Virus record (IMG/VR): IMGVR_UViG_3300035703_000148
Coordinates: 1 to 46,999 of that record
Direction: 5' to 3' (one strand)
From: a virus
Length of the DNA stretch: 46,999 bases
In this document: piece after piece, positions 12,106-19,191 of the stretch
How positions within the stretch are numbered: the first letter of the stretch is position 1
How the letters are laid out: every line of letters begins with the position of its first letter
Position numbers and translations under genes: made by a program
The notes under the pieces: generated by a model
What the model was told of the DNA's origin: nothing
Database searches by the model: none
What the model saw: only the letters and a program-made list of their open reading frames with translations

Positions 12106-12177
12106 ATTAAATTAGAGTAATCTCCCTAATTTTTGGGTAATCGTTGCCAATGGCGGGAAAGATGCGGGGATGGTGGG

Positions 12178-12206
12178 TTGTGCTTTGTATCGTGTGGCGT
12201 TACAAT
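12178..12206 (+). promoter_or_regulatory. Promoter of higBA
   Basis: TTGTGC (12178-12183), 17 nt, TACAAT (12201-12206). The expected start is 12212-12213, the A of the higB ATG, and there is no Shine-Dalgarno, so the toxin message is probably leaderless. Confidence 0.65.
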
Positions 12207-12212
12207 TGCAGC

Positions 12213-12491
12213 ATGATCAAGACGTTCAGGCACAAAGGACTGCAAGCATTTTTTGAGCACGGCAGTAAGGCAGGCATCCGGCCAGACCATGCGCCCAAGC
12301 TGTCGCGCATGCTGCGGCGTTTGGATGCGGCAACTGCTGCGCAGGATATGAACTTGCCGGGCTGGGGCTTGCATCCATTGTCAGACGATTTGAAAGGTCA
12401 CTGGGCTGTATCGGTCAATGGCAACTGGCGCATGACGTTTACCTTTGATGGCTTGGACGTTGTGCTGGTCGATTACATGGATTACCACTAG
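12213..12491 (+). CDS. higB: HigB-type toxin (RelE/ParE superfamily)
   Basis: This 92-aa protein begins MIKTFRHKGLQAFFEHG and contains HAPKLSRMLRRLDAATAAQD, LPGWGLHPLSDDLKGHWAVS and VNGNWRMTFTFDGLDVVLVDYMDYH. These are the classic features of HigB toxins, which are mRNA interferases acting at the ribosome. The open frame continues upstream to 12144, but the promoter at 12178-12206 and the family N-terminus fix the start at 12213. It lies between PL and the repressor, where phages often carry lysogeny genes, and probably stabilises the prophage or acts in defence. Confidence 0.93.
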   Translation: MIKTFRHKGLQAFFEHGSKAGIRPDHAPKLSRMLRRLDAATAAQDMNLPGWGLHPLSDDLKGHWAVSVNGNWRMTFTFDGLDVVLVDYMDYH

Positions 12492-12503
12492 GAGGGCAAC
12501 ACC

Positions 12504-12824
12504 ATGAGCCGTATGAACAACCCCCCGCATCCGGGGCTAACATTAAGGGATGATGTATTGCCCGCCTTGGGGCTAAGCGTTACGCAGGCGGCGGCACAGC
12601 TGGGAGTGTCGCGCGTGGCATTGTCCAGGGTGCTGAATGGCCGGGCGGCTATTTCGCCGGATATGGCGCTGCGCTTGGAGGCTTGGTTAGGTGTTGAGCG
12701 GGGCGGTAGTGCTCGCGTGTGGCTGGCAGAGCAAAGCGCTTACGATATGTGGCAGGCAGAGCAGCGGTTTATGATTTCACCGCTACGGGTGCAGCCTGCG
12801 CCGATGGGGGCTTTTGCTGGTTAG
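12504..12824 (+). CDS. higA: HigA-type antitoxin (XRE HTH)
   Basis: This 106-aa antitoxin has the HigA pattern: NPPHPGLTLRDDVLPALGLS, then the helix-turn-helix VTQAAAQLGVSRVALSRVLN, GRAAISPDMALRLEAWLGV and a C-terminal toxin-contacting tail (WLAEQSAYDMWQAE). A strong GGAGG lies about 9 nt upstream of ATG 12504, in contrast to the site-less higB, so antitoxin should be made in excess. It follows higB by 12 nt and ends before a 14-bp hairpin. Confidence 0.94.
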   Translation: MSRMNNPPHPGLTLRDDVLPALGLSVTQAAAQLGVSRVALSRVLNGRAAISPDMALRLEAWLGVERGGSARVWLAEQSAYDMWQAEQRFMISPLRVQPAPMGAFAG

Positions 12825-14427: not shown

Positions 14428-14522
14428 GTTTTAACCAGATGGCTATCTCGACGGAGAGAAAAGGCGAATCCCGACCGCCCTGCCAGTCTGTTTTCAGTCG
14501 GGCATTTTCGGGGATGAAATGA
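14424..14522 (+). CDS. Possible 32-aa peptide coupling two genes
   Basis: MSFNQMAISTERKGESRPPC to ...SRAFSGMK. Both ends overlap neighbouring genes by ATGA, so it could act as a translational relay between the 81-aa gene and the DUF1376 gene. No family; the peptide itself may not matter. Confidence 0.4.
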   Translation: MSFNQMAISTERKGESRPPCQSVFSRAFSGMK

Positions 14523-14755
14523 AGTCTTACACACACAACATTAGCGTGTATGCAGCACAAACTCGCCATCTATCAATGATTGAGCACGGCGCATACAGGC
14601 TGCTTTTGGATATGCACTACAAGAATGGTCTGCCATTGGGGTTAGAAGGCATATTCCGCAAAACAGGGGCACGTACAGAGGCAGAGCGCGAAGCAGTGAA
14701 CAACGTACTGCAAGACTATTTTGAGCGCACACAAAATGGGTGGGCGCACAAATGA
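14519..14755 (+). CDS. Stand-alone DUF1376 (YdaU-like) domain, 78 aa
   Basis: SYTHNISVYAAQTRHLSMIE, HGAYRLLLDMHYKNGLPLGL and NNVLQDYFERTQNGWAHK match the N-terminal domain of the next gene (IGDYAAHTSRLSLMEDLAYR, MLDAYYLAERPF, VLNKFFTRTETGY). DUF1376 proteins occupy the replication initiator position in many phages. This copy ends just after the domain, with a normal stop overlapping the next start. It is either a duplicated regulatory half or a decaying copy. Confidence 0.75.
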   Translation: MKSYTHNISVYAAQTRHLSMIEHGAYRLLLDMHYKNGLPLGLEGIFRKTGARTEAEREAVNNVLQDYFERTQNGWAHK

Positions 14756-15561
14756 ACTACTTTTCCTTTCACATTGGGGATTATGCAGCGCACACCAGCA
14801 GGCTGTCGCTGATGGAAGATTTAGCCTACCGCAGAATGTTAGATGCGTACTACCTAGCTGAACGTCCGTTCAACGGGAGTTCAGCGGACGTTGCGCGTGA
14901 GATAGGCATGATGGAGCATATTCAGGCTGTTGAATATGTGCTTAACAAGTTCTTTACCCGCACAGAAACGGGTTACATGAACGCACGTTGTGAGCAGGAA
15001 ATTGCCAAGTTCCGCGACAAGAAAACGAAGGCTTCGAACGCTGGTAAAGCATCCGTTGAACGGCGGCTTGGAAAAAAGTCAACGGACGTTGAAAAAGTTT
15101 TAACAGACGTTCAACTAACCAAGAACCAAGAACCAAGAACCAATAACCAAGAACCAATAAATACAAATACAAAGCCGCGCAAGAGCGCGTTGTGTGTTGC
15201 AAAGCCGGATGAGGTTGACTCAAAAGTTTGGGAGGACTACCTCCAAGTTCGCAAAACCAAGCGCACACCCCTAACCCCAACCGCCTTGGATGGCATCAAG
15301 CGGGAAACGCAACTGGCAGGCATACCACTGGAGGCAGGGCTTCGGATTTGCTGTGAGCGCGGTTGGGTTGGCTTCAAAGCCGATTGGGTAGCAAACCAAC
15401 AACCCAAACGCATCGCACAAGCCGAGAGCTTTGCCGAGCGTGACGCAAGGACACGAGCAAACCGCATGGCTGAGTTTGCACCCTCCGTAGCGGCGCGTAA
15501 TGCCAGCGTATTCACAACCTTTGACTTGGAGGCTAATCATGTTGCCATTGCCTGCCACTGA
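14752..15561 (+). CDS. DUF1376 (YdaU-family) replication initiator-like protein
   Basis: This 269-aa protein has the DUF1376 domain at residues 1-85, then a basic Ser/Lys-rich region. A low-complexity Asn/Gln/Pro linker (about 120-140) is encoded by out-of-phase 7-bp repeats. The C-terminal half (VWEDYLQVRKTKRTPLTPTA ... GWVGFKADWV) resembles the DnaT/O-like C-terminal part of phage replication proteins. It corresponds in position to lambda O, with P-like next. It carries candidate initiator-binding repeats at 14861, 14883, 15081 and 15102. ATG 14752 overlaps the upstream stop. Confidence 0.75.
   Translation: MNYFSFHIGDYAAHTSRLSLMEDLAYRRMLDAYYLAERPFNGSSADVAREIGMMEHIQAVEYVLNKFFTRTETGYMNARCEQEIAKFRDKKTKASNAGKASVERRLGKKSTDVEKVLTDVQLTKNQEPRTNNQEPINTNTKPRKSALCVAKPDEVDSKVWEDYLQVRKTKRTPLTPTALDGIKRETQLAGIPLEAGLRICCERGWVGFKADWVANQQPKRIAQAESFAERDARTRANRMAEFAPSVAARNASVFTTFDLEANHVAIACH
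14861..15111. repeat. Four dispersed AACGGACGTT motifs (candidate initiator-binding sites)
   Basis: AACGGACGTT occurs inverted at 14861-14870 and direct at 15081-15090, with one-mismatch copies at 14883-14892 (AGCGGACGTT) and 15102-15111 (AACAGACGTT). The motif is itself palindromic at its ends. All lie inside the initiator-like gene and upstream of the 7-bp repeats. Confidence 0.45.
15117..15158. repeat. Six tandem 7-bp repeats, AACCAAG/AACCAAT
   Basis: Units run AACCAAG x3, AACCAAT, AACCAAG, AACCAAT with no spacing, followed by an A-rich tract (AAATACAAATAC). A period of 7 is not a codon multiple, so the repetition is not explained by a protein repeat. It is a candidate part of the replication origin. 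Confidence 0.55.
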
Positions 15562-16000
15562 CCGCCTTTTTGAACGCATGGCTTTGACCTACGGCAGCGC
15601 ATGGGTGCGCCAATGGGAGGGGTTGGATGCAAACACCGTGAAGTCCTTTTGGGCGCATGAGCTTTCACAATTTGCGGGTTGCTTGCAGAACATCGCTTGG
15701 GCGCTGGAAAACCTGCCGGAGCGTTGCCCTAACCTTGTGCAGTTCAAGGCGTTATGCCACCAAGCGCCAGCAGCCGTAAAGCCTGCATTGCCTGAGCCAA
15801 AGGCTGACCCTGAGCGCCTAAAGGCTGAACTGGCAAAACTAGCACCGCTGGCGAGCGAAATGAAAGCGCAAAAGCGCAGCACGGACGGGCGCGAATGGGC
15901 GCGGTTAATCATGCAGCGATTCAATGGCGGCGAGAAGGTAAACCCTACCACCTTAGCTATGGCGCGTAATGCCCTGCGCCTTGAAGCGGAGGCAGCATGA
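15539..16000 (+). CDS. Replication protein P-like helicase loader
   Basis: This 153-aa protein begins MLPLPATDRLFERMALTYGS, then WVRQWEGLDANTVKSFWAHE and ENLPERCPNLVQFKALCHQA. These resemble phage P proteins that deliver the host DnaB helicase to the initiator at the origin. A strong GGAGG precedes ATG 15539, within the last codons of the initiator-like gene. The C-terminal part is helical and basic. I assign the family from this pattern and gene order; it is shorter than lambda P (233 aa). Confidence 0.7.
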   Translation: MLPLPATDRLFERMALTYGSAWVRQWEGLDANTVKSFWAHELSQFAGCLQNIAWALENLPERCPNLVQFKALCHQAPAAVKPALPEPKADPERLKAELAKLAPLASEMKAQKRSTDGREWARLIMQRFNGGEKVNPTTLAMARNALRLEAEAA

Positions 16001-17297: not shown

Positions 17298-17849
17298 ATG
17301 GCAAGGCAAAGTAAGTGCGATGCACTACCAGAACATGAACGGGCAAAGCTAATCGGCTTGATTGCTGAGGGCAGACCGTGGCGCGACCTGAGCGCGATTT
17401 TCAATATACCAACGGCAACGATTCACGAGTGGGCTTCACAAAACGGCTACACCCGCAACCCGACAAGTACCAAGCGGCTGCTGGTTGAGCAGTTGATGGC
17501 GCGACCTGAGCAACCCGTACAAACCGGACAAACCGAACAGGGGCAAACCGAACAAACCGAACAAGCCGAACAAACGGCTGTACACCGTCCAGAGGATATT
17601 GATGCGGCGGCGCGGGAGGATGCGCGGGATATGCGGCTAGGGCTACAGGCGGCACGGTTGGCGTTGCAGGTAAGCGCAATGGGGCTAAATGAAATGCGGA
17701 AGGCGGCAGTACCCGACTACAGGGCGACAAAGGTATGGAGCGAGTGCGTATCTATAAACGTGGCAACCATTCGCAAGATTCGTGGGTTGGATGACACCAA
17801 CACAGCGCCAGTCATAACGATTGAAAGAAGCTATGGAAAACAAAGCTGA
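17298..17849 (+). CDS. HTH protein with TEQ repeats, possible terminase small subunit
   Basis: This 183-aa protein has an N-terminal helix-turn-helix (ERAKLIGLIAEGRPWRDLSA ... TATIHEWA) at about 12-48, then a Gln/Thr/Glu repeat linker (TGQTEQGQTEQTEQAEQ) around 76-92, then a helical C-terminal domain. HTH plus a helical region upstream of the packaging genes is typical of small terminase subunits, but similar proteins can be transcription factors. A 9-bp repeat (CAAACCGAA-like) encodes the linker and could vary in copy number. Evidence for packaging is positional. Confidence 0.5.
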   Translation: MARQSKCDALPEHERAKLIGLIAEGRPWRDLSAIFNIPTATIHEWASQNGYTRNPTSTKRLLVEQLMARPEQPVQTGQTEQGQTEQTEQAEQTAVHRPEDIDAAAREDARDMRLGLQAARLALQVSAMGLNEMRKAAVPDYRATKVWSECVSINVATIRKIRGLDDTNTAPVITIERSYGKQS

Positions 17850-19191
17850 GATTGAATACTTGGGTATTGAGAATTTAATACCCTATGCGCGGAACAGCCG
17901 CACCCATAGCGATGAACAGGTGGCGCAGATAGCGGCATCCATCCGTGAGTTTGGCTTTACCAACCCTGTGCTGGTAGATGGCGAGGGCGGCATTATTGCG
18001 GGGCATGGGCGCGTTATGGCGGCGCGTAGGCTAGGGCTTGGTGAAGTACCGTGCATCCGTTTGGGGCATCTTACCGAGGCGCAGAAGAAGGCTTATGTGA
18101 TAGCGGATAACAAGCTGGCGCTGAATGCAGGTTGGGATGATGAAATGCTGGCGCTGGAGCTAAAAGAGCTAGAGGACATGGGCTATGACCTCGACCTGAC
18201 GGGCTTTAGCGATGAGGAAATAGAGGCGCTGGCGCTTGGCATCGGTGATGATGAAGCCGACATGGAGGGTAACGGTGAGGGCGGGGGTAACTTGTCTGAC
18301 CGCTTTATGTTGCCACCATTTAGCGTATTTAATGCGCGGGAGGGTTGGTGGCAAGACCGCAAACGTGCATGGCTAAATATTGGCATGAAATCGGAGCTTG
18401 GGAGGGATGCAAAGGCATTTGGTAATGCGGGCGCTACCGATGATGTAAGCAAAAAGATTTTATCTCAAAGTGATGGAATTAGCATATTTGACCCCGTACT
18501 TTGCGAGATAGCTTACCGCTGGTTCGCGCCTGTTGGTGGGGTTGTGCTTGACCCGTTTGCGGGGGGTAGTGTGCGCGGTATTGTTGCATCCAAGCTAGGG
18601 CGGCGGTATATAGGGCATGAGTTACGGCAGGAGCAGGTTACAGCCAACCGCGAGCAGGCAGGCGAGATATGCGTGGATGATGACCTACCGCCTGCGTGGA
18701 TATGCGGGGATAGCAGGGGCATTACTAGCACTTGCCATGATGTGCAGGCTGATTTAGTGTTTAGCTGCCCACCGTATGCTGACCTAGAGGTTTACAGCGA
18801 TGACCCCAAGGATTTAAGCACCCTATCCTATGCAGAATTTAAGGATGCGTATTTTGAGATTATCAAGAAATCCTGTTCGCTGCTAAAGGAAAACCGCTTT
18901 GCCTGCTTTGTGGTGGGCGATGTGCGCGATAAGCACGGCAATTACTACGACTTTGTGGGGGATACCGTGCAGGCGTTCCGTGATGCGGGGCTGCACTACT
19001 ACAACGAGGCTATTTTAGTAACCAGCGTTGGGACGTTGCCTATTCGTGCTGGCAGGCAGTTTTCTATAGCGCGGAAGTTAGGCAAAACACACCAAAACAT
19101 CCTTGTCTTTGTTAAGGGGGATGGCAAAAAGGCGGCGCAAGCCTGCGGCGAGGTTGATGTGACCGTACCCGATGAGTTGGAGGTTAGTTAA
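17833..19191 (+). CDS. ParB-like nuclease domain fused to DNA methyltransferase
   Basis: This is a 452-aa fusion. Residues 5-135 are ParB/Srx-like (IPYARNSRTHSDEQVAQIAA, then GGIIAGHGRVMAARRLG). Residues 155-452 are an adenine/cytosine-N-specific methyltransferase with SAM motif I DPFAGGS at 240-246 and catalytic motif IV SCPPY at 311-315. Such proteins modify phage DNA, probably protecting it from host restriction; the recognition site cannot be read off. ATG 17833 follows AAAGAAG; a TTG at 17821 is possible. It overlaps the upstream gene by 17 bp. Confidence 0.88.
   Translation: MENKAEIEYLGIENLIPYARNSRTHSDEQVAQIAASIREFGFTNPVLVDGEGGIIAGHGRVMAARRLGLGEVPCIRLGHLTEAQKKAYVIADNKLALNAGWDDEMLALELKELEDMGYDLDLTGFSDEEIEALALGIGDDEADMEGNGEGGGNLSDRFMLPPFSVFNAREGWWQDRKRAWLNIGMKSELGRDAKAFGNAGATDDVSKKILSQSDGISIFDPVLCEIAYRWFAPVGGVVLDPFAGGSVRGIVASKLGRRYIGHELRQEQVTANREQAGEICVDDDLPPAWICGDSRGITSTCHDVQADLVFSCPPYADLEVYSDDPKDLSTLSYAEFKDAYFEIIKKSCSLLKENRFACFVVGDVRDKHGNYYDFVGDTVQAFRDAGLHYYNEAILVTSVGTLPIRAGRQFSIARKLGKTHQNILVFVKGDGKKAAQACGEVDVTVPDELEVS

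Follow-up and report, generated by a model that had tools for sequence, protein, structure and literature searches.

A probable phage replication origin of 11-bp and 7-bp repeats within the gene for a DUF1376 initiator

The window (the whole analysed stretch of 46,999 bases, positions 1-46,999 of the virus record IMGVR_UViG_3300035703_000148) carries at 14755-15561 (+) a gene for a putative replication initiator with an N-terminal DUF1376 domain, a disordered linker and a lambda-O-like C-domain, as assigned by Pfam, PHROG and AlphaFold2. The DUF1376 domain (PF07120) spans residues 1-84 (approximately 14755-15006), scores 75.3 bits against a curated cut-off of 30.1 and is the only Pfam match of the N-domain, which does not score as a member of the lambda O N-domain family. 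PHROG profiles match the protein as primosomal (phrog_6451) and as O-like (phrog_678), the latter over residues 89-222. The AlphaFold2 model includes confident helical domains and a low-confidence linker (approximately residues 110-150); this linker is the segment coded by the repeats described below, with the heptamer array predicted to fall at approximately residues 121-135, between the N- and C-domains. Compared with solved winged helices (ORC2, MarR-like, RuvB and Z-DNA-binding proteins), the DUF1376 model gives weak matches (Z 4.3-5.8, residues 5-100), and Foldseek returns no match to the N-domain model at E <= 0.001; the model weakly suggests a winged-helix-like fold. Solved structures for the initiator were not found by sequence search, and the origin region had no match in a DNA-level search of phage records.

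Downstream of the initiator gene lies a P-like helicase-loader gene (15536-16000, +; possible alternative start codon at 15500), recognized by its similarity to 'replication protein P' of MW202520.1 in a tblastn search (E 2e-12); its product has no match of its own in Pfam or PHROG profiles. A NinB gene (Pfam) follows, and the gene order is cI-O-P-nin. In named phages the gene downstream of the DUF1376 gene codes for P, DnaB, DnaC or a helicase loader. In 89 relatives the families most often met downstream are P-like loaders (24), DnaC-like loaders (about 11) and DnaB-like proteins (5-6). Ahead of the initiator is a short DUF1376-only paralogue (14519-14754, +; PF07120, 69.3 bits), the stop codon of which overlaps the initiator ATG (ATGA); the same arrangement of short gene and full initiator is noted in two relatives (L004 and L096), and the short protein could act as a copy-number brake by competing for the 11-mers. 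Directly 5' of the DUF1376 genes is an int-alpA RNA (RF02996), both in the window (14436-14502, +; 44.9 bits) and in its closest relative (L001, 2912-2977; 41.9 bits), and a leader RNA of the replication operon is a possible identity for it. Other features of the window include a HigB-like toxin gene and, after it, an HTH antitoxin-like gene (12171-12824), a DNA methylase domain fused to a ParB-like N-terminus (17836-19191), and a 33-bp repeat of about 2 copies with a 9-bp sub-repeat CAAACCGAA (17510-17575), which codes for a Q/T/E-rich stretch inside an HTH_23 ORF (17298-17849).

Within the initiator gene, six contiguous heptamers occupy 15117-15158 (+) and read as three AACCAAG units followed by AACCAAT, AACCAAG and AACCAAT. 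The first-pass annotation had reported these six units from the bare sequence, and both direct reading and Tandem Repeats Finder (period 7, 5.9 copies, 94% matches) agree with it. The array is conserved in relatives, has no second copy in the 46,999-base record and has a period-7 score of 28, compared to a best score of 8 elsewhere in the window; when the gene is shuffled among synonymous codons, none of 5000 shuffles reaches 28 (maximum 26). The A+T content of the array is 62%, and the A-rich tract that had been noticed on its 3' side is present as a 17-base tail with 76% A+T (15159-15175, +). The heptamers are a candidate unwinding or loading element.

The heptamers are directly adjoined on their 5' side by a palindromic block of 11-mers of class I (15052-15116, +), which includes CCGTTGAACGG, AACGGACGTT, AACAGACGTT and GTTCAAC and is a candidate set of initiator-binding iterons based on the 11-bp periodicity and fixed distance seen in relatives. 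Three 11-bp repeats (AACGTCCGTTC, AACGGGAGTTC and AGCGGACGTTG) form a distal cluster in DUF1376-coding DNA at 14861-14893 (+); the copies at 14861, 14872 and 14883 are spaced exactly 11 bp apart, and relatives have class-matched clusters in the corresponding position. An isolated exact palindrome, AACGCACGTT (14980-14989, +), is of uncertain membership. AACGnnCGTT palindromes are exact at 14861, 14980 and 15081 and have one mismatch at 14872, 14883 and 15102; the four palindromic motifs previously listed between 14861 and 15111 are all present, together with two that had been passed over. The six copies in the gene compare to 1.8 expected, and none of 1000 synonymous shuffles reaches six. Two further elements are additions to the earlier description: the 11-bp register, and an inverted repeat, CGCGC-AAGA-GCGCG, that may form a hairpin (15176-15189, +), at a place where hairpins are enriched in relatives.

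Relatives of the initiator were collected by protein similarity as a non-redundant set of 118 DUF1376 initiators from viral contigs and bacterial genomes. Close relatives with 33-52% amino-acid identity carry the array at the same place. Period-7 scores of at least 12 occur in the linker of 77 of the 118 and in the DUF1376 region of none, and 92 of the 118 exceed their synonymous shuffles at p <= 0.02. At least three A[ACT]CA units spaced exactly 7 bases apart, mostly five or six units, are found in 81, while a further 31 have a related 6- or 7-base array (e.g., ACCAAC, AACCAG, CCCAATA and CCAGACA). Loss of the repeats from relatives that keep the protein, named beforehand as evidence against an origin, was not seen, as 112 of the 118 keep a short-period (6- or 7-bp) array and six are without a significant one. 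Among cultured phages, such arrays occur, for example, in phiAC-1, AbP2, BA3, Mcat18 and psageK9, with a 6-bp form in Bordetella phage IFTN2.

A scan of IMG/VR by DNA pattern alone, (AACCAAK)3AACCA, finds at least 120 arrays. Among the 120 listed, 112 are in the sense orientation within a DUF1376 gene. By reading of the listed proteins, five of the other eight are in initiator-like genes (one cut, two divergent DUF1376-like and two without a recognised N-domain) and three are not. The AACCAAG arrays outside recognisable initiator genes (L238, L256 and L323, the last joined to an AACCGCG array) are possibly unrelated microsatellites. CACCAGA arrays are less exclusive, with 36 of 50 in DUF1376 genes and the remainder partly long non-coding microsatellites. 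An exact-pattern search for GATTA/GATAA arrays gave no matches.

The 11-mers are likewise recurrent. In the 66 bases 5' of the heptamers of relatives, autocorrelation peaks at lag 11 (z 21) and lag 22 (z 16), and 4+2+4 palindromes number 97 versus 27 expected. The 11-mers fall into six classes: GTTCAACGnnC, ATGCGAACGCA, GGAACCCAGTC, ATAGCCCCCC, TCTGAAATCAG and CCTGCAACGGC. Their distance to the first heptamer is fixed in 30 of 35 loci of class I, 12 of 12 of class II and 12 of 12 of class IV. A second cluster of the same class as the proximal one lies about 200 bp upstream in DUF1376-coding DNA; there, class I motifs average 1.89 per class I locus versus 0-0.2 in other classes, and class II motifs 1.17 per class II locus versus 0. 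The nearest neighbour by N-domain has the same 11-mer class in 60 of 71 cases and that by C-domain in 28 of 71, with 21 expected. A tracking of N-domain by class that is independent of descent was not upheld, as agreement is 15 of 71 when the N-domains are at most 50% identical; because the link is gone among distant N-domains, it may reflect descent and physical linkage, and the match of class to N-domain is a hint from sequence comparison. Mutual information between DUF1376 residues and class is spread over the whole domain and is uninterpretable.

The 11-mers vary and are specific to a class, and the heptamers are what the loci share; thus, the heptamers need not be the primary binding sites of the initiator. 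The converse assignment, in which DUF1376 binds the heptamers as iterons and the 11-mers act as operators, either of a repressor or in an autoregulated replication operon, draws on the heptamers being shared more widely across the family than any other element and on the operator-like position of the distal 11-mers, which lie within coding sequence some 200 bp away from the array. This assignment is nevertheless unlikely, as the proximal 11-mers adjoin the heptamers at fixed spacing and vary by class as the recognition sites of diverging proteins do, whereas identical heptamers accompany initiators without a recognisable DUF1376 domain (L292 and L327). The 7-bp units, moreover, do not lie on one helix face, and 6-bp versions also exist.

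Selection on the DNA itself, which the first-pass annotation considered likely from a period that is not a codon multiple, is shown by the synonymous shuffles of the 118 relatives and by codon use, conservation by codon position and avoidance of TAA. With the peptide N[QH][EK]P[IRLT] as the only criterion (NQEP/NHKP motifs), the residues of the motif are written almost always in a single codon: AAC 80/80, CAT 37/37, CAA 43/43, GAA 42/42, AAA 38/38, CCA 79/80 and, for isoleucine, ATA 49/55. Conservation of unit positions 1 and 2 does not depend on which of the three codon positions they occupy; a version of this test with unit positions 3 and 4 free is uninformative, as the pattern slips register. 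In the preferred unit ACCAATA, a T fills the sixth place in 56-73% of the units in which it does no harm and in 1% of those in which it would create TAA. The alternation of G and T is therefore read as a DNA signal bent around stop codons. A role at the protein level, as a linker, flexible and hydrophilic (NQEPITN..), that slippage has lengthened, or as a recombination joint for swaps of N- and C-domains, would fit the predicted disorder of the linker and the reshuffling of the domains, in which C-domain neighbours share an 11-mer class only near chance. Such a role is highly improbable given the near-single codon per residue, the period of 7 and the near confinement of arrays of exactly this type to initiator genes; furthermore, the peptides vary (NQEPITN, HQTPDTR and TNTN) while the CCA-spaced DNA is constant.

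On the 3' side of the array, an inverted repeat with a stem of at least 5 lies within 60 bases in 49 of 81 genes, compared to 22 in synonymous shuffles and to 10-14 genes for repeats of the same size farther downstream. Frequent loops in the relatives are TGAC, TGTC and TGAA, none of which is used by the hairpin of the window. Where the peptide defines an xPxGV motif, complementary wobble bases occur in 23 of 34 cases versus 10.4 expected (p 5e-5). Across the 81 relatives, the array and the next 12 nt form a local A+T maximum (0.66 versus 0.44-0.55 around it), and the base composition of the array has a strong strand bias (A 56%, C 29%, G 5%, T 10%). A+T richness as the sole explanation is rejected on account of arrays with 43-50% A+T, as is a G-quadruplex on the TTGG strand, since AATCAT and AAACAAT arrays are without GG. 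GC skew as a marker of the origin turns near 12-13 kb in the window, where it is confounded by a turn in gene direction.

The strand bias and the hairpin often found 3' of the array may also be read at the level of RNA, as an unstructured A/C-rich mRNA tract and hairpin that control transcription (in a rut-like manner or by a pause or R-loop) or translation of the initiator. The arrays are in the sense strand of the DUF1376 gene in 112 of 112 cases among the matches listed, and the lambda origin is activated by transcription through it (PMC5043065). Sense orientation, however, is hardly distinguishable from a by-product of coding once an array is fixed in a gene, the 11-bp phasing and palindromes indicate binding to duplex DNA, and AAACAAT arrays are without the YC steps expected of rut sites; a primary role in RNA is, thus, quite improbable.

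Repeats hidden in the linker-coding DNA reach beyond the DUF1376 initiators. Two initiators without a Pfam N-domain have 11-bp repeats just 5' of their heptamers (lag-11 z 3.4 and 4.2). Initiators with a Lin1244_N domain have GATAAGATTAG in place of heptamers, and AGATAC-type repeats take this place in Pseudomonas phage AH02 and in Rac. A group of loci (L021-L024 and L028-L031) combines a window-like C-domain and a different N-domain (Lin1244_N, tested on L028) with AGATAAGATTAG arrays in the same linker. Another initiator, with an HTH_36 N-domain (L025, 1450-1734), has four long GTAGCCGA..GGCTAC palindromes in its linker that are reminiscent of lambda iterons. Because the heptamers are common to initiators with different N-domains, and because the AGATAC-type (AH02, Rac) or GATAAGATTAG (Lin1244_N) repeats replace them, comparison of the sequences suggests that a common factor reads the array or that it is read in single-stranded form.

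Among known systems, phage lambda is close in layout. Its O protein binds the iterons and opens the A+T tract beside them, 40 bp in which nearly all purines are on one strand; both O and P bind single strands, and O binds single-stranded A+T DNA (PMC5043065, PMC7466680). Like lambda and its Stx-phage versions, the window has the repeats inside the initiator gene, at the DNA that codes for the linker between the DNA-binding and C-terminal domains; repeated candidate initiator sites precede an A+T tract that is about 40 bp long and differs between the strands, the C-domain is O-like and a P-type loader gene is next. By contrast, the iterons of lambda are four inverted repeats of 18-19 bp and its N-domain is different, while here there are 11-bp palindromic classes in two clusters, a shared array of 7-bp units and a DUF1376 N-domain. 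The parallel to lambda drawn in the first-pass annotation agrees with this order of iterons and then unwinding tract inside gene O, as seen in a lambda-type locus (L225). An intragenic phage origin is, in this respect, of a known kind, and the predicted working is lambda-like without the lambda type of iteron or N-domain.

The Rac prophage of E. coli, which has an active origin, oriJ (PMC3945230), offers a second comparison. Its YdaU is annotated DUF1376 and precedes the ATP-binding YdaV (DnaC-like in phage 683R6); similarly to the window, ydaU has 11-bp repeats of the GTGTTCAAACA type (lag-11 z 3.0), but AGATA-type repeats instead of CCA heptamers. In E. coli K-12 (L226, 5120-5977), the 11-bp repeats and the AGATA array are inside ydaU, and these repeats are a candidate site of oriJ. 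Bacterial oriC, with DnaA boxes and DnaA-trios and the B. subtilis DnaD recognition element, likewise sets duplex sites beside a strand-specific element that can be read as a single strand (PMC10201434); the period there is 3 rather than 7 or 6 and the proteins are different, so the analogy is functional only. In Francisella phage KIRK, a lambda-like origin is predicted from repeats within a replication gene (fhv_0043; PMC7924643), and both the protein family (Phg_2220_C) and the repeats differ from those described here.

Taken together, the region at 14861-15190 is probably (at roughly 0.8) a phage replication origin placed, as in lambda, within the gene of its own initiator, in which the 11-mers would be bound by DUF1376 and the heptamers would serve as a sequence-specific element for unwinding or loading. 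The intragenic origin proposed at first pass finds support in the O-like gene, the cI-O-P-nin order and the loader or helicase genes downstream in relatives. The parts are ordered as distal 11-mers, proximal 11-mers, heptamers at the A+T peak and, often, a hairpin. From these directly observed elements, with their order, spacing, selection at the DNA level and genomic company, a course of initiation may be proposed. The winged-helix-like DUF1376 domain would bind the 11-bp palindromes, which lie one helical turn apart, and build an initiator complex. This complex would strain and open the adjacent 35-42-bp heptamer array and its A-rich tail, and the regular CCA-bearing strand may be kept single-stranded by the initiator or the loader. 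The O-like C-domain would then recruit the P-like loader together with host DnaB, and the downstream hairpin may position them. The distal 11-mer cluster is probably part of a looped complex or of autoregulation.

A broader reading is put forward tentatively, as a possibility with the odds against it: the CCA-spaced array may be a sequence-specific origin element shared by a very large phage group and read single-stranded, as the helicase is loaded, by a component that otherwise different initiators have in common, as a phage counterpart of the DnaA-trio/DnaD element, in which case the 11-mers would be an evolving specificity code and the hairpin a third signal. The open-licence literature gave no prior description of these repeats or this architecture (ydaU/oriJ, heptamer iterons and intragenic origins), and one phage paper in it that names DUF1376 lists this only as a domain of unknown function. 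A common phage family of unknown function would gain a concrete job, as a putative origin initiator, and the DNA signature would let origins be read in many uncultured phages. The six 11-mer classes and interchangeable 6- or 7-bp arrays provide a natural set in which to study how initiators recognize and open an origin and to ask whether an unwinding element can be sequence-specific, with repeated signals that are common to very many distantly related phages.
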